A stretch of 64,000 nt of DNA. Source: Pseudomonas tritici (GTDB lineage: Bacteria; Pseudomonadota; Gammaproteobacteria; Pseudomonadales; Pseudomonadaceae). Shown in pieces: positions 32,241-40,272 of the stretch. The notes under the pieces are model-generated. The model saw only the letters and a program-made list of their open reading frames with translations, searched no databases and was not told where the DNA came from. Location: positions 4,650,001 through 4,714,000 of the forward strand of contig NZ_CP077084.1 of assembly GCF_014268275.3 (NCBI RefSeq), given 5' to 3'. Position numbers and translations under genes: made by a program. Positions within the stretch are counted from its first letter, which is position 1; each line of letters starts with the position of its first letter.

Positions 32241-33191
32241 GTGGACAAGATTTTTCACCAACCACTGGGCGGCAACGAAATGCCGCGCTTTGCCGGCATC
32301 GCCACCATGATGCGTCTTCCCCACCTGCAATCGGCCAAGGGCCTGGACGCCGCTTTTGTCGGCGTGCCGCTGGACATCGGCACCTCGCTGCGTGCCGGCA
32401 CCCGTTTCGGGCCGCGTGAAATCCGCGCCGAATCGGTGATGATCCGCCCGTACAACATGGCCACCGGCGCCGCCCCGTTTGATTCGCTGTCGGTTGCCGA
32501 CATCGGCGACGTGGCGATCAACACCTTCAACCTGCTCGACGCCGTGCGCATCATCGAAGAAGCCTATGACGAGATCCTCGAGCACGGCGTGATCCCGATG
32601 ACGCTGGGTGGCGACCACACCATCACCCTGCCGATCCTGCGGGCGATCCATAAAAAACACGGCAAGGTCGGGCTGGTGCACATCGATGCCCACGCCGACG
32701 TCAACGACCATATGTTCGGCGAGAAAATCGCCCACGGCACCACCTTCCGCCGCGCCGTGGAAGAAGGCCTGCTCGATTGCGACCGTGTGGTACAGATCGG
32801 CCTGCGTGCGCAGGGCTACACCGCCGAAGATTTCAACTGGAGCCGCAAGCAAGGTTTCCGCGTGGTCCAGGCCGAAGAATGCTGGCACCACTCCCTCGCG
32901 CCGTTGATGGCCGAAGTGCGTGAAAAAGTCGGCGGTGGCCCGGTGTACCTGAGCTTCGATATCGACGGCATCGACCCGGCCTGGGCGCCAGGCACTGGCA
33001 CCCCGGAAATCGGCGGGCTGACCACCATCCAGGCCATCGAGATCATCCGTGGCTGCCAGGGCCTCGACCTGATTGGTTGCGACCTGGTAGAAGTTTCGCC
33101 GCCCTACGACACCACCGGTAACACCTCACTGCTGGGCGCCAACCTGTTGTACGAAATGCTCTGCGTACTGCCAGGCGTGGCGCACCGCTGA
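32241..33191 (+). CDS. gbuA: Guanidinobutyrase (ureohydrolase family)
   Basis: This 316-residue Mn-dependent hydrolase of the arginase/agmatinase fold most likely splits 4-guanidinobutyrate into 4-aminobutyrate and urea. Metal ligands are in LGGDHTIT (about residue 129), VHIDAHADVND (about 152-162) and SFDIDGIDPAWAPG (about 241-254). The start is GTG at 32241 with GAGG 7 bases upstream. Context rather than the sequence decides between guanidinobutyrase, guanidinopropionase and agmatinase. It is the first gene of a transport/catabolism operon. Confidence 0.82.
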   Translation: MDKIFHQPLGGNEMPRFAGIATMMRLPHLQSAKGLDAAFVGVPLDIGTSLRAGTRFGPREIRAESVMIRPYNMATGAAPFDSLSVADIGDVAINTFNLLDAVRIIEEAYDEILEHGVIPMTLGGDHTITLPILRAIHKKHGKVGLVHIDAHADVNDHMFGEKIAHGTTFRRAVEEGLLDCDRVVQIGLRAQGYTAEDFNWSRKQGFRVVQAEECWHHSLAPLMAEVREKVGGGPVYLSFDIDGIDPAWAPGTGTPEIGGLTTIQAIEIIRGCQGLDLIGCDLVEVSPPYDTTGNTSLLGANLLYEMLCVLPGVAHR

Positions 33192-33613
33192 TGAGCACGC
33201 ACGACGTGCTGCAAGCCGCCGCCGAGCTGGTGGCGGCGTTCGCGCGCAACGACCGCGACGCCTACTTCGGGGCATTCACGGCCGATGCCAGCTTTGTGTT
33301 CTACACCCTCCCCCAGCCGCTGCTCAGTCGCGATGCCTATCAGGTGTTGTGGGACAGCTGGCGCCGGGACGAGGGCTTCGAGGTGCTGTCGTGCACCTCG
33401 AGCAATGCCTTTGTCAGCCTGCAAGGCGACGTGGCGATATTCATGCATGACGTGGCCACCGAGCTGCGCATGCAAGGGGAGCAATTCTTTAGCCAGGAGC
33501 GCGAGACCATTGTCTTTAAACGGCAAGGGTCTGGCACACAACAAAAACAAGGCCTGTGGCTGGCCTGTCACGAACATTTGTCCGCTATGCCGGAAGGGCT
33601 GCCGCCCCCTTAG
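33191..33613 (+). CDS. NTF2/SnoaL-like protein (140 aa)
   Basis: This 140-residue protein has a predicted cone-shaped alpha+beta barrel: the N-terminal helix AAAELVAAFARNDRDAYFGAF is followed by DASFVFYTLP and a series of strands. It starts on the last base of the gbuA stop (TGATG), so it is coupled to it. It corresponds in position to PA1420. Its function in guanidino-compound use is unknown; an isomerase-like or binding role is only a possibility. Confidence 0.75.
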   Translation: MSTHDVLQAAAELVAAFARNDRDAYFGAFTADASFVFYTLPQPLLSRDAYQVLWDSWRRDEGFEVLSCTSSNAFVSLQGDVAIFMHDVATELRMQGEQFFSQERETIVFKRQGSGTQQKQGLWLACHEHLSAMPEGLPPP

Positions 33614-33634
33614 CCAATGTGATCGGAGCTGATC

Positions 33635-35191
33635 ATGAATAATAAAAACAACGATAAAAGTATTCGCAAGATAGAAACCAACGGGGTCGAGCAGATCCCG
33701 GACCACGAACGCACCGCCACACCCAAGGATCTGTTCCGGCTGATCTTCGGCGGAGCCAATACCTTTGCCACCGCTGTGCTGGGCTCTTTCCCCGTGCTGT
33801 TCGGTTTGTCATTCCAGGCCGGCGTCTGGGCGATTGTGCTGGGCGTGCTGGTGGGTGCGCTGATCCTGGCGCCCATGGGCCTGTTCGGGCCGATCAATGG
33901 CACCAACAATGCGGTGTCTTCCGGTGCGCACTTCGGCGTGCACGGGCGGATTGTCGGCTCGTTTCTCTCGCTCCTTACCGCGATTGCCTTCTTCTCACTG
34001 TCGGTGTGGAGTTCGGGCGATGCGCTGGTGGGGGGTGCGAAACGTCTGATCGGCCTGCCGGAAACCGACCTGAGCCTGGGCCTGGCCTACGGCGTGTTCG
34101 CCATTCTCGTCCTGACGGTGTGCATTTACGGCTTTCGTTTCATGTTGTGGGTCAACCGCATTGCGGTGTGGGCGGCGAGCCTGCTGTTCCTGCTGGGGAT
34201 CTTCGCCTTTGCCCCGGCTTTCGACCGCCATTTTGCAGGCACCGTAGCGATGGGACAGACCGGTTTCTGGGCGGCCTTTATCGGCGCCGCGCTGGTAGCC
34301 ATGAGCAACCCGATTTCCTTCGGCGCGTTCCTCGGTGACTGGTCCCGCTACATCCCGCGTGAGACGTCGAAAATGCGCATCATGCTGGCGGTGGTCCTCG
34401 CGCAGATTGCCACCTTGATCCCGTTCCTGTTCGGCCTGGCCACCGCGACCATCGTGGCGATCAAGGCGCCGGACTACATCGCGGCGAATAACTATGTCGG
34501 CGGTTTGCTGGCGGTGGCGCCCACCTGGTTCTTCCTACCGGTGTGTTTGATCGCGGTGATCGGCGGCATGTCCACCGGCACCACCTCGCTGTATGGCACC
34601 GGGCTGGACATGTCCAGCGTGTTTCCGCGCTTGTTGTCGCGGGTCAAGGCCACGCTGCTGATCGGGGTGATGTCGATTGCCTTCATCTTTATCGGACGTT
34701 TCGCCGCCAACCTGGTGCAGAGCGTGTCGACCTTCGCCGTGCTGATCATCACCTGCACCACCCCATGGATGGTGATGATGATCATCGGGCTGATTGTGCG
34801 TCGCGGCTTCTACTGCCCGGATGACCTGCAGGTATTTACGCGCGGCGAAACCGGCGGCCGCTACTGGTTCAGCCATGGGTGGAACTGGCGCGGGCTGGGG
34901 GCGTGGATTCCGAGTGCGCTGGTGGGCCTGTGCTTTGTCAACCTGCCGGGGCAGTTTGTCGGTCCGCTGGGCAACCTGGCCGATGGCATTGATATCAGCC
35001 TGCCGGTCACGCTGGGGTTGGCGTCGGTGGTGTACCTGACCTTGCTGCGTGCGTTTCCGGAACCGACGGCTGTCTACGGCCCGACCGTTGTGGCGAGAGA
35101 GCTTGCTCCCGTTCGACAGCGAAGGTGGGGCCGCTTCGCAGCCCAGCGGGAGCAAGCTCCCTCGCCACAGCAAGCACCTTCACCACAATAA
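33635..35191 (+). CDS. NCS1-family permease (CodB-like) with REP-derived tail
   Basis: This 518-residue inner-membrane transporter has about 12 spans. The NCS1 features are FGANTFATAVLGSFPVLF near the N-terminus and PISFGAFLGDWSRYIP in the centre. In this cluster it probably imports a guanidino compound or related nitrogen source. Residues from about 485 on (VARELAPVRQRRWGRFAAQR, then QAPSPQ twice) are encoded by a REP palindrome and do not look like family sequence. It is followed 24 bases later by the sodium symporter. Confidence 0.83.
   Translation: MNNKNNDKSIRKIETNGVEQIPDHERTATPKDLFRLIFGGANTFATAVLGSFPVLFGLSFQAGVWAIVLGVLVGALILAPMGLFGPINGTNNAVSSGAHFGVHGRIVGSFLSLLTAIAFFSLSVWSSGDALVGGAKRLIGLPETDLSLGLAYGVFAILVLTVCIYGFRFMLWVNRIAVWAASLLFLLGIFAFAPAFDRHFAGTVAMGQTGFWAAFIGAALVAMSNPISFGAFLGDWSRYIPRETSKMRIMLAVVLAQIATLIPFLFGLATATIVAIKAPDYIAANNYVGGLLAVAPTWFFLPVCLIAVIGGMSTGTTSLYGTGLDMSSVFPRLLSRVKATLLIGVMSIAFIFIGRFAANLVQSVSTFAVLIITCTTPWMVMMIIGLIVRRGFYCPDDLQVFTRGETGGRYWFSHGWNWRGLGAWIPSALVGLCFVNLPGQFVGPLGNLADGIDISLPVTLGLASVVYLTLLRAFPEPTAVYGPTVVARELAPVRQRRWGRFAAQREQAPSPQQAPSPQ
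35089..35169. repeat. REP palindrome inside the NCS1 permease coding tail
   Basis: TGTGGCGAGAGAGCTTGCTC at the left and GAGCAAGCTCCCTCGCCACA at the right are near-perfect inverses with a 41-base centre. This is a different REP subtype from the GTGGGAGC type. It lies wholly in frame. Confidence 0.87.
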
Positions 35192-35215
35192 AAAGATAAT
35201 TGGAGACTCGCCGTC

Positions 35216-36595
35216 ATGGCTTTGGATTTATTCGTCGTACTCATCTACGCCGCCGGCATGCTCGTGCTCGGCTATTACGGCATGCGTCGCGCCAAGACCC
35301 ATGAAGACTACCTGGTGGCCGGGCGCAACCTGGGCCCGTCGCTGTACATGGGCACCATGGCGGCCACAGTACTGGGCGGCGCATCGACCGTCGGCACCGT
35401 GCGCCTGGGTTATGTGCATGGCATCTCCGGCTTCTGGCTGTGTGCCGCGCTGGGCATGGGCATCATCGCGCTGAACCTGTTCCTCGCCAAGCCGCTGCTC
35501 AAGCTGAAGATCTTCACCGTCACCCAGGTCTTGGAAAAGCGCTACAACCCCATGGCGCGTCAGGCCAGTGCGGTGATCATGCTGGCGTATGCGCTGATGA
35601 TCGGCGTGACCTCGATCCTGGCCATCGGCACGGTGTTGCAAGTGCTGTTCGGCCTGCCGTTCTGGATCTCGGTGCTGCTCGGCGGTGGCGTGGTGGTGGT
35701 GTATTCGACCATCGGTGGCATGTGGTCGCTGACGCTGACCGATATCGTGCAATTCGTGATCAAGACCGTTGGCCTGATGTTTATCCTGCTGCCGATCTGC
35801 CTGTACCGCGTGGGCGGCTGGGACGAGCTGGTGGCCAAGCTGCCGGCGTCGAGCTTCAGCTTTATCGCCATCGGCTGGGACACGATCATCACCTACTTCA
35901 TGATCTACTTCTTCGGCATCCTGATCGGCCAAGACATTTGGCAACGGGTATTCACCGCCCGTGACGAAAAAGTCGCCAAGTACGCAGGCACTTTCGCCGG
36001 TTTCTACTGCATCCTCTACGGCCTGGCCTGTGCACTGATCGGCATGGCGGCGCATGTGCTGATTCCGGACCTGGATAACGTCAACAACGCCTTCGCGGCG
36101 ATCGTGAAAGCATCGCTGCCCGACGGGATTCGCGGCCTGGTGATTGCCGCGGCTCTCGCGGCGATGATGTCAACGGCCAGCGCCGGTTTGTTGGCCGCCT
36201 CCACCGTCCTGACCGAAGACCTGCTGCCGCGCCTGCGTGGTGGTAAACAGTCGAGCCTGGCGATCAACCGTTTGTTCACGATGCTGACCGGTATTGCCGT
36301 GCTGGGGATCGCACTGGTGGTGAACGACGTGATCAGCGCACTGACCCTGGCTTACAACCTGCTGGTGGGCGGTATGCTGGTTCCGCTGATTGGCGCGATC
36401 TTCTGGAAACGCGCGACCACGTCGGGGGCGATTACCTCCATGACCTTGGGTTTTGTGACGGCACTGGTGTTTATGTTCAAGGATGGGCTGGATGCGAACA
36501 CGCCGATTTACTACAGCCTGGCGGTTGGGCTGGTGAGTTTTGTCGTGGTGAGTTTGTTGTCGCGTAAGCCGGAGGCGGTGGCAACGGCGGTTTGA
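35216..36595 (+). CDS. Sodium:solute symporter (SSS family)
   Basis: This is a 459-residue membrane protein with about 13 spans. Typical SSS segments are DYLVAGRNLGPSLYMGTMAA (about residues 31-50), STIGGMWSLTLTDIVQFVIK (about 164-183) and AALAAMMSTASAGLLAASTVLTED (about 306-329, Na2 site region). It is the homologue by position of PA1418 and probably imports a guanidino acid or a related carboxylate with sodium. It is the last gene of the gbuA unit, with a terminator after it. Confidence 0.87.
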   Translation: MALDLFVVLIYAAGMLVLGYYGMRRAKTHEDYLVAGRNLGPSLYMGTMAATVLGGASTVGTVRLGYVHGISGFWLCAALGMGIIALNLFLAKPLLKLKIFTVTQVLEKRYNPMARQASAVIMLAYALMIGVTSILAIGTVLQVLFGLPFWISVLLGGGVVVVYSTIGGMWSLTLTDIVQFVIKTVGLMFILLPICLYRVGGWDELVAKLPASSFSFIAIGWDTIITYFMIYFFGILIGQDIWQRVFTARDEKVAKYAGTFAGFYCILYGLACALIGMAAHVLIPDLDNVNNAFAAIVKASLPDGIRGLVIAAALAAMMSTASAGLLAASTVLTEDLLPRLRGGKQSSLAINRLFTMLTGIAVLGIALVVNDVISALTLAYNLLVGGMLVPLIGAIFWKRATTSGAITSMTLGFVTALVFMFKDGLDANTPIYYSLAVGLVSFVVVSLLSRKPEAVATAV

Positions 36596-36626
36596 TGCAG
36601 AACGAGCTTTAAAGCGGTTTCTTCAG

Positions 36627-36660
36627 CGGGTGCGACGTCGGATGTCGCACCCGTTTTTTT
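36627..36660 (+). terminator. Rho-independent terminator of the gbuA operon
   Basis: A perfect 10-bp stem CGGGTGCGAC/GTCGCACCCG with a 7-base loop is followed by seven T. Confidence 0.9.
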
Positions 36661-36672
36661 ATCACTCAACGC

Positions 36673-38751
36673 TCAAGTGTTAGTTTGCTGGATGATTTCC
36701 TGAACTAAAGAAGCCCATACCAATCCCTGCGTTGTGCCCGCCGCGTAAGTTCCCCCAGCCGCGATTCGATGATAGGCCGACCAATAAACGATCGACAGTC
36801 CATCTGCGGTGCAAGGCCTGGCACATTCGATAATATGCAAGTCGCCACTTTCGATCGCCCTGCGGTAGGACATCGGAAAGTGCCGAGAAACAGCGGCCAG
36901 GCACGCCGCCAATATCTGCTCCTTGCATTCCGACGTCGAATCAGGCGGAACCTGCCCGCCGGAGACAAGTATGCAATCCCCATCCAACCGGCAATTCATG
37001 ACGCCGACGGGCAGATCGTACTGCAGCTTGAGTCCGCGCACTTCGACGCCTTCATCACCGACAGCACGCAGTTTGAAAAACCAGCCAATGATCGCGATTA
37101 CCTCTGACTCCTCCACCCCCATGGCTGTGATGACGAAGTGCTCTCTGCTCAGCTCAGTAATTTGGGCCGGACTCAGATGCTGGGGCTGAAACTGAACGCC
37201 AGAGCACTGCAGAAGCGCCTCTAGCTCATTCTTTAAATGGATGAACTCAACATCGTAGCCCGATACCTCAATAGCCCGACCAATCCCTGGGATTGCATAG
37301 TTTGCCTGGAATTGCAGTTGACTGATCTCTGCGAGTTCATATCCCGGCTTCCCACTTGGCCAACGCCTGCTTTCAATATCACGCTGCTCAAGAATCGCGG
37401 CCTCTACACCACTCGCACCCACCCTATAGGCTCGTACAATCCCCGCCTGTGCGAATTGTGCAAGCGATGGGTTGTCGGCCAGAAGCTTTTCAAAGAGCTC
37501 AATGCCTGCGCGGTTGCACGCAACAGCAAAGCACTGATTCCCGGGAGTCAGATGGTCATTATGCAGCGGCTTTGCAGTTGTCTCCGTTGCGGAAAGATGG
37601 CGCATGTTCACCTGCTTATGACTGGCTCCATTGCTCTCGCGATTTCCTCCGTATACGACGACCTGATAATTCGCCAGGCGTAACATCATGGCTTGGAGCA
37701 GACCGTTGATTCCTCTACCGATGATCGACACGCGCGGCGCACCGACATGTGTGTGTTGAGAGGGGATCATTAACGATTGTGCAAGCTTGCGCCTGACAAC
37801 ACCCCGCAACGCCATTAAGCTCAGTTGGACTGCGACCGCATAGTCAAGGTCGCAATGGCAGGCTTCGGTGGTTGCCGCCCGTGCAGTGAGCGTCGCCGGT
37901 TTACGCCACGTGGAGACACTACAGCCGAGCATTTGGGTACGCATCCGAAACACATCCAATGTCGTAGGTCCGTAATCGACGACAAGCTGGATGCCTCCAG
38001 CCGCCGCCAACATTCGCAATGCATCATCGCTAAAGACATCCGGTTTGGCGACACAGACCAGGCGAGCTTGTTTGTGCATACATTCAATGAGGGCCTGATC
38101 AATGCGATACGTAGACTCATCATTCAGTGATAAACATATGGCAACAGCAGAGGCACCCTCTAACGCCTCGAACCAGTCTGCGACAAAAGTCACCCGGTTA
38201 TCGGAAAAGGCTGTCCCATTATTATCTGGCGCTCGACAGTGTCGAACCAACACCTTTATCCGAACATCCGGATCTCGATCAAGCAACAACTTGACCAGCT
38301 CTTTGCCTACATTGCCGTATCCCAATATACGGACATCATGGGGTAAGGAGCCGTCGGCCAGTTTCAACCAATGCGTGATATAGGCAGCCACATGCGGCGC
38401 ATTGACCCCAGGCGTATTGATCACCCGAATACTGTTAGATTTACACAGGTCCAGCCGCACTTTATCCAAACTCGTACCTCTTCGGATCAGATAGAGGTCT
38501 TCAAAAGGATGAGATATACGCCATTGGTCAATGACGTCTGCATCGATAGATTGGTCGCCGACAATTATCGTTGATGGGCGCAGGAGCCCAATCTGTATGA
38601 GCAGAGCTTGCTTAGTTAACGTTGGGGGAAGAAAAACTACGTTGCTGGGGGCCTCAGCCTTCCAGGCTCTCGACACAGGCGCGATATGTAAAATGTTTTC
38701 AGTTATGGCAATGAGTGGCGCAGCGACGGGCGGAACCGAAGAGAGCAACAT
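36673..38751 (-). CDS. Fused NAD(P)-binding 2-hydroxyacid-dehydrogenase-like and FAD oxidoreductase protein
   Basis: This is a 692-residue protein with two catalytic-type halves. Residues about 80-300 resemble D-2-hydroxyacid dehydrogenases: INTPGVNAPHVAAYI, then the Rossmann loop LGYGNVGKELVKLL. The usual catalytic Arg segment is altered (VAKPDVFS where VARGxxVD is expected), and the acidic NAD-selecting residue is replaced by Arg/His. Residues about 345-690 are a DadA/DAO-like FAD domain: VSIIGRGINGLLQAMML, later VSGGQVPPDS, CARPCTADGLSIV and AAGTTQGLVWASLVQEI. The ATG at 38751 has TTGGAG upstream. A/T and rare-codon use (ATA, TTA, AGA) suggest recent transfer. The exact reaction is unknown. 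Confidence 0.75.
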   Translation of the reverse strand: MLLSSVPPVAAPLIAITENILHIAPVSRAWKAEAPSNVVFLPPTLTKQALLIQIGLLRPSTIIVGDQSIDADVIDQWRISHPFEDLYLIRRGTSLDKVRLDLCKSNSIRVINTPGVNAPHVAAYITHWLKLADGSLPHDVRILGYGNVGKELVKLLLDRDPDVRIKVLVRHCRAPDNNGTAFSDNRVTFVADWFEALEGASAVAICLSLNDESTYRIDQALIECMHKQARLVCVAKPDVFSDDALRMLAAAGGIQLVVDYGPTTLDVFRMRTQMLGCSVSTWRKPATLTARAATTEACHCDLDYAVAVQLSLMALRGVVRRKLAQSLMIPSQHTHVGAPRVSIIGRGINGLLQAMMLRLANYQVVVYGGNRESNGASHKQVNMRHLSATETTAKPLHNDHLTPGNQCFAVACNRAGIELFEKLLADNPSLAQFAQAGIVRAYRVGASGVEAAILEQRDIESRRWPSGKPGYELAEISQLQFQANYAIPGIGRAIEVSGYDVEFIHLKNELEALLQCSGVQFQPQHLSPAQITELSREHFVITAMGVEESEVIAIIGWFFKLRAVGDEGVEVRGLKLQYDLPVGVMNCRLDGDCILVSGGQVPPDSTSECKEQILAACLAAVSRHFPMSYRRAIESGDLHIIECARPCTADGLSIVYWSAYHRIAAGGTYAAGTTQGLVWASLVQEIIQQTNT

Positions 38752-39056
38752 AGCTTTGTCTCCAACCAATTCTGACTTACTGGTACCTCAAAGCGAGGCA
38801 CTCAATAAAGTTAGGGCGCGATGAAAATGCGCTTAGTTTTTATCCGAGACTAGTTGCCTTGGTCCCTAATGGAACCCAACCTACGCGTGTCTTTATAATT
38901 AAATAAGCCAGCCGATTCTGACAATCATGCAGTCCAATTCCGACAAATGAGTGCCAAAACCTGATTGACATGCGTGAAATCGGGCTAGTCACCCGAAATC
39001 CCGTGAACAAGAGCGGATACGACTTCAGATATCACTTCTATCTTTTCAACCCGTCG
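38752..39056. other. A/T-rich gap in the accessory block
   Basis: This 305-base stretch has no convincing gene. It is clearly A/T-rich at 38895-38915 (TTTATAATTAAATAAG), which probably holds the promoter of the fused oxidoreductase gene on the minus strand. Confidence 0.45.
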
Positions 39057-39431
39057 CTATTTTTTGGCGCCTTCAAACACATCACCGCAGTCCTTGCAGC
39101 CAAAGTACTGCGCAGTTGCCGGGCACTCAATCTCCCCCGTAGCGCCTGCCCTCACCCGCCAAATGCATGCCTTGCCTTGATATTTCAGCGTGCCCTCCAG
39201 GTAACAAGGCGCCCAGTCATACTCATCGTGCAGCGTACGACCATCAATAAGTTCAGCCTGCTTGAAAAAGGCCGCTACCTGCCGCTCATCCAGCGCAACG
39301 TCACTGGGACGGCAACGCTCAGGTTCTTCGGAATGGAAGCCCGCGATGGAGATAGCCTCAACATCACGCGGGGTGGACGCGCATCCGGCGAGTAACATCC
39401 ACACGCCCAGTGTCCATCGCGCTGAAGTCAT
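39057..39431 (-). CDS. Cysteine-containing lipoprotein, candidate amidase immunity protein
   Basis: This is a 124-residue lipoprotein. The lipobox MLLAGC gives a lipidated Cys near residue 17, and the mature part has seven further Cys (for example FGCKDCGDVF at the C-terminus). The ATG at 39431 overlaps the stop of the amidase gene (ATGA), so the two are translationally coupled. A small envelope protein immediately downstream of a peptidoglycan amidase that lacks a signal peptide is the usual arrangement of effector and immunity genes. Direct evidence for inhibition is lacking. Confidence 0.65.
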   Translation of the reverse strand: MTSARWTLGVWMLLAGCASTPRDVEAISIAGFHSEEPERCRPSDVALDERQVAAFFKQAELIDGRTLHDEYDWAPCYLEGTLKYQGKACIWRVRAGATGEIECPATAQYFGCKDCGDVFEGAKK

Positions 39432-40030
39432 TGCCACACCGCACTGCTGGCTTCACCTGGATGTTTGTATGAGATTTGCGGGTGCGTGTAGATGTCTTCC
39501 GGTGTCAGACGGAAATGACCACGCAATTCAGACACCAACCACTGCAGAGACTGATTCTGCAGTGCGGTAACCCGCTCATAACGCGTGGCATCCAGGTGTT
39601 TGCCGACCAATTCGATACCCAGGGAGTCCGCATTCATCGGGTATCGTTCAGGATAGCCCTTGGTGCGTTCGTGCCGGTCCAGCGCGCGAATCTGTAACGT
39701 CCAGGTGAGCGCTTGAATCGACTGGATTTGAGCGGTATCACAGGTCGTTTTATCAACTGCCAGGCACTTGGAGCGCAGGTAGCGCCCAACGTGATAACAG
39801 CGTTTTTTCAGGCTGGCCGTCTGGTAGATGAGGCCATCTTTTTCAATCAAAAAGTGCGCACCGTTGCCTTTGGACAGATAACCGTTAAAGGTGTGCTGTG
39901 CCGTTGGGGCATCCGTCTGGTGAATCACCAAGGCACGCACGCTACGCATATCTCCCTGCTCAATCGATGGAAACCGACGACGCTCAACCCTGTCGGAAAT
40001 CACCATACCTTCGCCATCAATGCTCGACAT
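39428..40030 (-). CDS. Peptidoglycan amidase (amidase_2/PGRP type), candidate secreted effector
   Basis: This 200-residue protein without a signal peptide has an N-acetylmuramoyl-L-alanine amidase fold: VRALVIHQTDAPTAQHTFNGYL (first zinc His near residue 37), AHFLIEKDGLIYQTASL, DSLGIELVGKHLD, and IYTHPQISYKHPGEAS with the later His residues. The family's final DPG or CPG ligand reads HPG here. The ATG at 40030 has AAGGGTAGTGGG directly upstream. Related sequences, as I recall them, occur near type VI secretion genes, but none are in this window. A phage-derived lysin is the alternative. Confidence 0.75.
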   Translation of the reverse strand: MSSIDGEGMVISDRVERRRFPSIEQGDMRSVRALVIHQTDAPTAQHTFNGYLSKGNGAHFLIEKDGLIYQTASLKKRCYHVGRYLRSKCLAVDKTTCDTAQIQSIQALTWTLQIRALDRHERTKGYPERYPMNADSLGIELVGKHLDATRYERVTALQNQSLQWLVSELRGHFRLTPEDIYTHPQISYKHPGEASSAVWQ

Positions 40031-40272
40031 CCCACTACCCTTCCGTCCTTGTGAAGACAAAAATATAGAAGGACGAACCGGAAAAAGGTACGGATGACAG
40101 GATAAAAAGAAGGGTCCGACGACAACGCTGGCCTCGTCAGATAATCCAGTAAAGCGGCGGGGAACAAACTGCGGCTGCGCCCGAATGACAGGGAACCGAG
40201 CACGCCCTGAATAACAACCCATTGCAAAGCGCCCGCACGATCAACGAGTCGATCGCATGAGCGCTTCAGGAC

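Follow-up and report, generated by a model that had tools for sequence, protein, structure and literature searches.

The window, the whole 64,000-nucleotide stretch of Pseudomonas tritici contig NZ_CP077084.1 that we analysed, carries a gene whose product joins a domain of the D-2-hydroxyacid dehydrogenase (2HADH) fold to a flavin adenine dinucleotide (FAD) domain of the DAO-type fold, which forms the second half of the protein. This product is a member of a real, patchily distributed and uncharacterised family of two-domain flavoproteins, in which the FAD and NADP dinucleotide motifs are conserved and the substrate and catalytic residues of 2HADHs are replaced. Tentatively, we favour a function in which, within one polypeptide, the flavin half would act as an amine oxidase and the half of 2HADH fold as its non-canonical, NADP-binding partner, which would reduce the iminium product with NADPH. 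Both halves come from large, well-studied enzyme families. The original prediction, made from the window sequence, knew no described enzyme with this domain order, and our literature search, from whose reach subscription journals mostly lay outside, likewise found no description of such a fusion, of the rebuilding of a 2HADH site or of alleles without the oxidase subdomain.

The proposal of one frame fusing a 2HADH-like NAD(P) domain to a DAO-like FAD domain was borne out by profiles and predicted folds. The match of the window protein to the DAO profile (PF01266) exceeded the curated cut-off and the predicted fold was also of the DAO type; none of the ThiO or DadA equivalog models of NCBIfam matched the protein at E ≤ 1. 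The full-length structure model had a predicted template modelling score (pTM) of 0.91 with a confident relative placement of the halves, and structure comparison with the full model (VIA) gave a listing filled by DAO folds. The fold of the N half was called from Foldseek, sequence profiles and the model of a short form of the protein (described below). A protein search with the window protein, in which only the 8000 best candidates were scored, detected 113 proteins at E ≤ 1e-3 with the window's own counted, most of them with at least 85% query coverage. The homologues bearing organism names were mostly from Pseudomonas, with others from Variovorax and Ramlibacter, and profiles of the separate halves added further fused proteins, including those of Frankia and Parafrankia. 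The domain order was confirmed by Pfam for the remote proteins P0130 and P0137, and a profile search found a partial family protein in Dactylosporangium. Given that the same order is found in proteins of Pseudomonas, Variovorax, Ramlibacter and Frankia and recurs in remote phyla, a sequencing join of two genes was ruled out. All names borne by the homologues are automatic ones, either generic or at odds with each other (amino acid dehydrogenase, FAD-dependent oxidoreductase, lactate dehydrogenase and erythronate-4-phosphate dehydrogenase).

We then compared the N half with known 2HADHs. Its profile matched 127 distinct solved-structure sequences at E ≤ 0.01, with type III phosphoglycerate dehydrogenases (PGDHs) leading among the best 60, and hhalign matched it to ordinary PGDH-like proteins with an E-value of 4.7e-23. 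Excerpts of PMC6303947 describe four highly conserved substrate residues in 2HADHs, Gly, Arg, Glu and His, with Arg as the most conserved in the active site; in some type III enzymes Lys can substitute for His (excerpts of PMC6300728). Relative to these enzymes, of which the nearest is a type III PGDH with a catalytic Lys (4njo, Entamoeba), the window protein has Ser94 for the Gly and Lys236 or, in relatives, Glu for the Arg, its family conserves neither His nor Lys where the acid-base residue would be expected, and the domain is fused to an FAD domain. In a 30-row alignment of the family (A1), the carboxylate-binding Gly is replaced by Ser94 in all 30 rows, within an RRGTS motif (R90, R91, G92 and S94 30/30; T93 24/30) that aligns to the RAGAG segment of 4nfy. 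The catalytic Arg segment, which had been predicted to be altered, is replaced by KPDVF, aligned with NTARKE of 4nfy and NTSRGP of 1wwk; the Arg column holds Lys in 29 rows and Glu in one, and the next residue, P237, is invariant (30/30). The residue-291 column, at the place of the acid-base His, is mixed (Q 16, R 3, E 3, A 2, K 2 and H 1 of 30, the rest other), and segment 285–300 as a whole contains no conserved His or Lys, with a register less sure there than at the Arg. For the catalytic Glu, hhalign was uncertain around residues 259–274, where its alignment ends, and A1 showed no conserved Glu.

Other residues of the N half are near-invariant. N117, D301 and D303 are invariant in A1 and H120 is present in 28 of the 30 rows; conservation of the N half is particularly high in the cleft loops RRGTS, VNAPH and KPDVF, and RRGTS and KP/EP-x-VF are near-invariant new signatures. 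The Gly residues of the GYGNVG dinucleotide motif are also conserved (G144 and G146 30/30; G149 29/30). The NAD-type Asp is absent, as had been predicted, and Arg170 stands in its place in 25 of the 30 rows of A1 and in 4 of the 13 rows with the NAD domain in a broad, here loosely aligned, 16-row alignment (A5). Because the NAD-selecting acidic residue is absent, the nucleotide site reads as NADP-type. We concluded from these alignments that the N half shares the descent and the fold of the 2HADHs but not their active site. Two remote N-half relatives, P0147 (315 aa) and P0148 (274 aa), which are perhaps eukaryotic or partial, carry the signatures RRGTSL and VNSPHVA with SRPEAF replacing KPDVF; in P0147 an Arg thus lies at the catalytic-Arg place.

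One speculative idea of the original prediction was an internal amino-to-hydroxy-acid conversion, with deamination in the FAD half followed by reduction of the 2-oxo acid in the NAD(P) half. Each parent family performs its step, and NADPH-preferring 2HADH reductases likewise have no NAD-type Asp in the loop (excerpts of PMC6303947), but with the Arg, Gly and His of 2HADHs replaced across the family this conventional keto-acid reduction is quite unlikely. The binding-module and new-chemistry alternatives of the same prediction gain weight. As a pseudo-dehydrogenase, the N half would bind NADP(H) and/or an anionic metabolite and steer or sense, all redox chemistry being left to the FAD half. The family-wide loss of the Gly, Arg and His fits this, as do the tolerance of Lys, Glu and Asn at the Arg place and the high conservation of the cleft loops. 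On the other hand, imine reduction would need less acid-base help, and 2HADHs with a changed triad can stay active: a type IIIK PGDH uses Lys and has no Glu (excerpts of PMC6303947). A ligand-binding N half is therefore somewhat doubtful in itself but nearly as likely as the oxidase–reductase function that we favour, and the amino-to-hydroxy-acid conversion is less so.

The FAD half retains the cofactor and Arg-Pro motifs of its glycine-oxidase relatives, to which it is 14–17% identical (ThiO, 1ng3 and 4ysh; CmiS2, 6j38). Unlike these enzymes, the window family has its own RHLSATE motif, an invariant C643 and a near-invariant K575, for which no Lys counterpart was found in the alignment with CmiS2 or glycine oxidase, in addition to the N half. 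R384, N413, R440, C643, R645, P646, D650 and G651 are invariant in A1 (30/30), and R384, E390, R440, K575, C643, R645 and P646 in A5 (16/16). The Arg-Pro of the CARP motif aligns with LRP/IRP of CmiS2 and glycine oxidase in a CxRPxTxDGL segment, and in glycine oxidase this Arg grips the substrate carboxylate. With respect to sarcosine oxidase, C643 may lie close to the position of that enzyme's flavinylated Cys, and K575 may lie close to that of its oxygen-activating Lys. CmiS2 converts N-carboxymethyl-3-aminononanoic acid to an imine, which is then hydrolysed (excerpts of PMC11284099). The positions of all features are listed in the table.

Table. Features of the fused gene and its product, in window positions
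Feature	Position	Strand	Remark
Whole fused gene	36673..38751	-	692 codons and stop, single frame
N half, residues 1-335	37747..38751	-	2HADH fold, NADP-type nucleotide site (from sequence), remodelled cleft
FAD half, residues 336-692	36676..37746	-	DAO superfamily, ThiO/CmiS2-like predicted fold
Ribosome-binding site TGGAG	38760..38764	-	invariant in 26/26 upstream stretches
RRGTS motif, residues 90-94	38470..38484	-	beta4-alpha4 loop; Ser94 at conserved-Gly place of 2HADHs
GYGNVG dinucleotide motif, residues 144-149	38305..38322	-	matches Rossmann GxGxxG
KPDVF motif, residues 236-240	38032..38046	-	replaces catalytic Arg segment
GRGING FAD dinucleotide motif, residues 345-350	37702..37719	-	G345, G347, G350 30/30 (A1)
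RHLSATE motif, residues 384-390	37582..37602	-	R384 30/30 (A1), 16/16 (A5); E390 29/30, 16/16
CARP motif, residues 643-646	36814..36825	-	C643, R645, P646 30/30 (A1), 16/16 (A5)
First block absent in short forms, residues ~431-494	37270..37461	-	
Second block absent in short forms, residues ~549-650	36802..37107	-	

In the oxidase–reductase function that we favour, the FAD half would act on an alpha-amino acid or N-substituted amino acid, oxidising its C–N bond to give an iminium, with Arg645 gripping the substrate carboxylate, and the N half would take this iminium from the FAD half and reduce it with NADPH, a step that would need neither an Arg for polarising a C=O group nor a His for protonation. 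The net outcome would be stereoinversion or re-modelling of an amine and not an amino-to-hydroxy-acid conversion. By analogy, such logic would be that of the two-gene pair Bsp4/Bsp5 (6p2i), a flavin oxidase partnered with an NADPH imino-acid reductase of 2HADH fold, the likeness being drawn from titles and fold. The Bsp4/Bsp5 oxidase, which carries the flavin, and the reductase are two separate proteins, unlike the one chain with a DAO-type oxidase found here. MnmC also has a DAO domain fused behind another catalytic domain, but its N domain is a methyltransferase and not a 2HADH fold. Coupled halves would make the window protein a ready-made, single-chain catalyst for deracemisation; a pseudo-enzymatic N half would be a 2HADH fold reused as a sensor.

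Several results weigh against the oxidase–reductase function. The structural match to 6p2i is unspecific, with ordinary 2HADHs occupying the same band of Z scores. The catalytic-Arg column, mostly Lys in A1, is split between Glu (8) and Lys (5) in the 13 A5 rows that have the NAD domain, and holds Lys in 24, Glu in two and Asn in one of 27 short natural forms of the protein; with this position variable, no catalytic residue was identified in the N half. These short forms, moreover, retain the N half next to an incomplete oxidase, and the neighbouring genes in Pseudomonas gave no hint of a substrate. A further alternative is a role of the FAD half as reductase or monooxygenase, its flavin receiving hydride from NADPH through the N half. 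The confident placement of the halves relative to each other would suit this, but it would require a 2HADH cleft that opens towards the flavin and we know of no precedent in the DAO family, so that we consider it very improbable.

We next examined the short forms. In a sample of 398 Pseudomonas genomes, 23 matched the window protein at E ≤ 1e-40, its own genome included, of which 13 had full-length copies and 10 had partial copies of a short form without two segments of the FAD half. In the model the absent blocks hold the strands and helices of residues 434–493 and 552–647, between parts of the FAD-binding core, and from DAO-fold topology we take them to be two separate segments of the substrate-binding subdomain. 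Seven of the 10 short copies have an open frame and three are visibly broken (L037, L042 and L043, their extent known from tblastn pieces only). A second collection of 19 loci contained three more short forms (L016, L017 and L018), two of them with N halves identical to those of L034 and L036, and the frame of L017 continues beyond the usual end; among the 16 long loci of this collection, a frame shift breaks one (L011). Whichever role the N half has, the short alleles are a natural experiment separating the roles of the two halves.

The alignment of short forms (A6) comprised 27 rows of fewer than 600 residues, from 26 search proteins and L016, with P0073 missing less than the others; it excluded P0079 and unusual truncations, P0071 and P0072 among them. 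Among 14 checked N-half residues, 10 were unchanged in all 27 rows (R90, R91, S94, H120, G144, G146, G149, P237, F240 and D303) and the others were less strict (D238 26/27, D259 25/27, N117 24/27 and K236 24/27); in the FAD motif, G345 and G347 were present in 27 and G350 in 25 rows. The predicted local distance difference test score (pLDDT) of a short-form model was 84–96 in most ten-residue blocks up to residue 330, with dips at the start and around residues 171–190 and 211–220. Because it fell to 43–52 around residues 371–390 and 481–510, the FAD site of the modelled short form is probably spoilt. The N half is likely functional without the oxidase in these forms.

Another alternative is that the N half works alone, the FAD half being an add-on lost by lineages. 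Short forms in 10 of the 23 carriers and the 10 fixed N-half residues argue for it, and in the sister pair L039/L040, both short, the ratio of nonsynonymous to synonymous rates (omega) was 0.21 in the N half versus 0.41–0.70 in the C remnants. In neutral simulation of such branches with substitutions only, the whole frame of four sequences stayed open in 0, 1, 4 and 3 of 2000 runs, but the C remnant frame alone was open in 66 to 152 of 2000. Across all short pairs, the median omega of the C remnant (0.205, against 0.138 for the C half of long forms) was no looser than that of the N half (0.211), and the FAD half of long forms is at least as constrained as their N half (medians of 0.09 at residues 340–430, 0.14 for the whole C half and 0.17 for the N half). 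Taken with the three broken copies, the overrunning frame of L017 and recombination with long alleles, by which a dying short allele could regain a fresh N half, these values make this alternative improbable.

A single origin of the short form with plain descent was ruled out: the N-half tree needs seven changes between long and short, at least five of them forced by well-supported branches, and none of 200 bootstrap N-half trees had only one. Long and short alleles seem to recombine, since dS jumps along the gene in long/short sister pairs, as in L008/L035 (0.10 in the N half versus 0.74–1.00 in the C pieces). Recurrent deletion may also have occurred, given that for the mid pieces of the short L016, L017, L018 and L035 the nearest sequence is a long form, ahead of the other short forms. 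The picture in full, a single-chain amino-acid inverter whose NADPH imine reductase receives the iminium within the same molecule and works without the 2HADH Arg/His site, together with a second allele class that lacks only the substrate-binding subdomain of the oxidase and in which the reductase-like half persists as a separate protein, this half being exchanged between the allele classes by recombination, is rather unlikely.

Wider genome samples gave matches only within Pseudomonas and added no gene context. Only the window's own genome matched in a class-level sample of 369 genomes, and two matched in a phylum sample of 398, both Pseudomonas and one of them the window's own. Plasmids searched with the window protein and viral contigs searched with A1 gave no match. 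A sodium:solute symporter adjoins the gene in 39 of 41 fetched loci, which include some species fetched twice, the exceptions being L006 (P. fragi) and L009. Among 22 loci around this symporter, three carry the gene, one of them the window's own, seven are empty, with a LysR gene 0.37–0.44 kb away and no family gene between, three have partial LysR matches and nine have neither. The foreign base composition noted in the original prediction was confirmed: all 16 long-form loci compared had a lower G+C in the gene than in its flanks, and the gene's G+C at third codon positions (GC3) was 0.56, where the median of 36 long open reading frames of the window was 0.78. The gene thus looks acquired, as predicted, with a patchy and not widespread distribution, but the acquisition looks old and not recent, because of the common site in 39 of 41 loci and a median pairwise dS of ~0.9 among long copies (pairs with dS of 0.05–1.5).

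The neighbours at the common site are LysR, the symporter, an NCS1-type permease and an arginase-family enzyme; LysR, symporter and permease also occur at loci without the gene and so give little pathway information. In the window, an arginase-family enzyme, a SnoaL-like protein, the NCS1-type permease and the symporter adjoin the gene at 32241–36595, and symporter and permease are found together also where the gene is absent. The copies outside the common site, L006 and L009, lie beside transporters with no shared operon. They share ~336 bases of upstream sequence, 67% identical, so that part of the upstream region may move together with the gene. No clear conserved leader was seen 5' of the ribosome-binding site in the upstream comparison, and no Rfam family was found in window positions 36400–39500 at E ≤ 0.1.

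Using P0130 and P0137 as queries, we found three remote relatives on plasmids, in Azospirillum (L044), Ochrobactrum (L045) and Methylomagnum (L046), each with the FAD half behind a short N-terminal stretch and without the NAD domain; we read this stretch as a probable N-half remnant. A search of 299 phylum genomes with a plasmid relative, made with no positive control, gave no match. The surrounding gene sets comprise a nonribosomal peptide synthetase, EamA transporter, glutathione transferase and major facilitator superfamily transporter in L044, gamma-glutamylcyclotransferase, aminotransferase, LysE and GNAT in L045, and di-haem proteins, an FAD-NAD(P)-binding protein, glutathione transferase, haloacid dehalogenase and DMT transporter in L046, offering only a hint of small amino-acid-derived products. 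The FAD relatives of L044 and L046 adjoin the glutathione transferase genes, and the FAD-NAD(P) protein of L046 (NAD_binding_9) has at the same place in L044 a 318-aa protein without a Pfam match.

Upstream of the gene in the window (39057–40222), we also found an Amidase_2 gene (N-acetylmuramoyl-L-alanine amidase, PF01510) and a small lipoprotein-like gene without a Pfam match, both of low GC3 (0.57 for the amidase). The pair also lies beside the gene in five short-form loci (L018, L036, L038, L039 and L040), and in L019 and L022 only the lipoprotein-like gene adjoins it. Our guess is that the two genes could form an effector/immunity pair.
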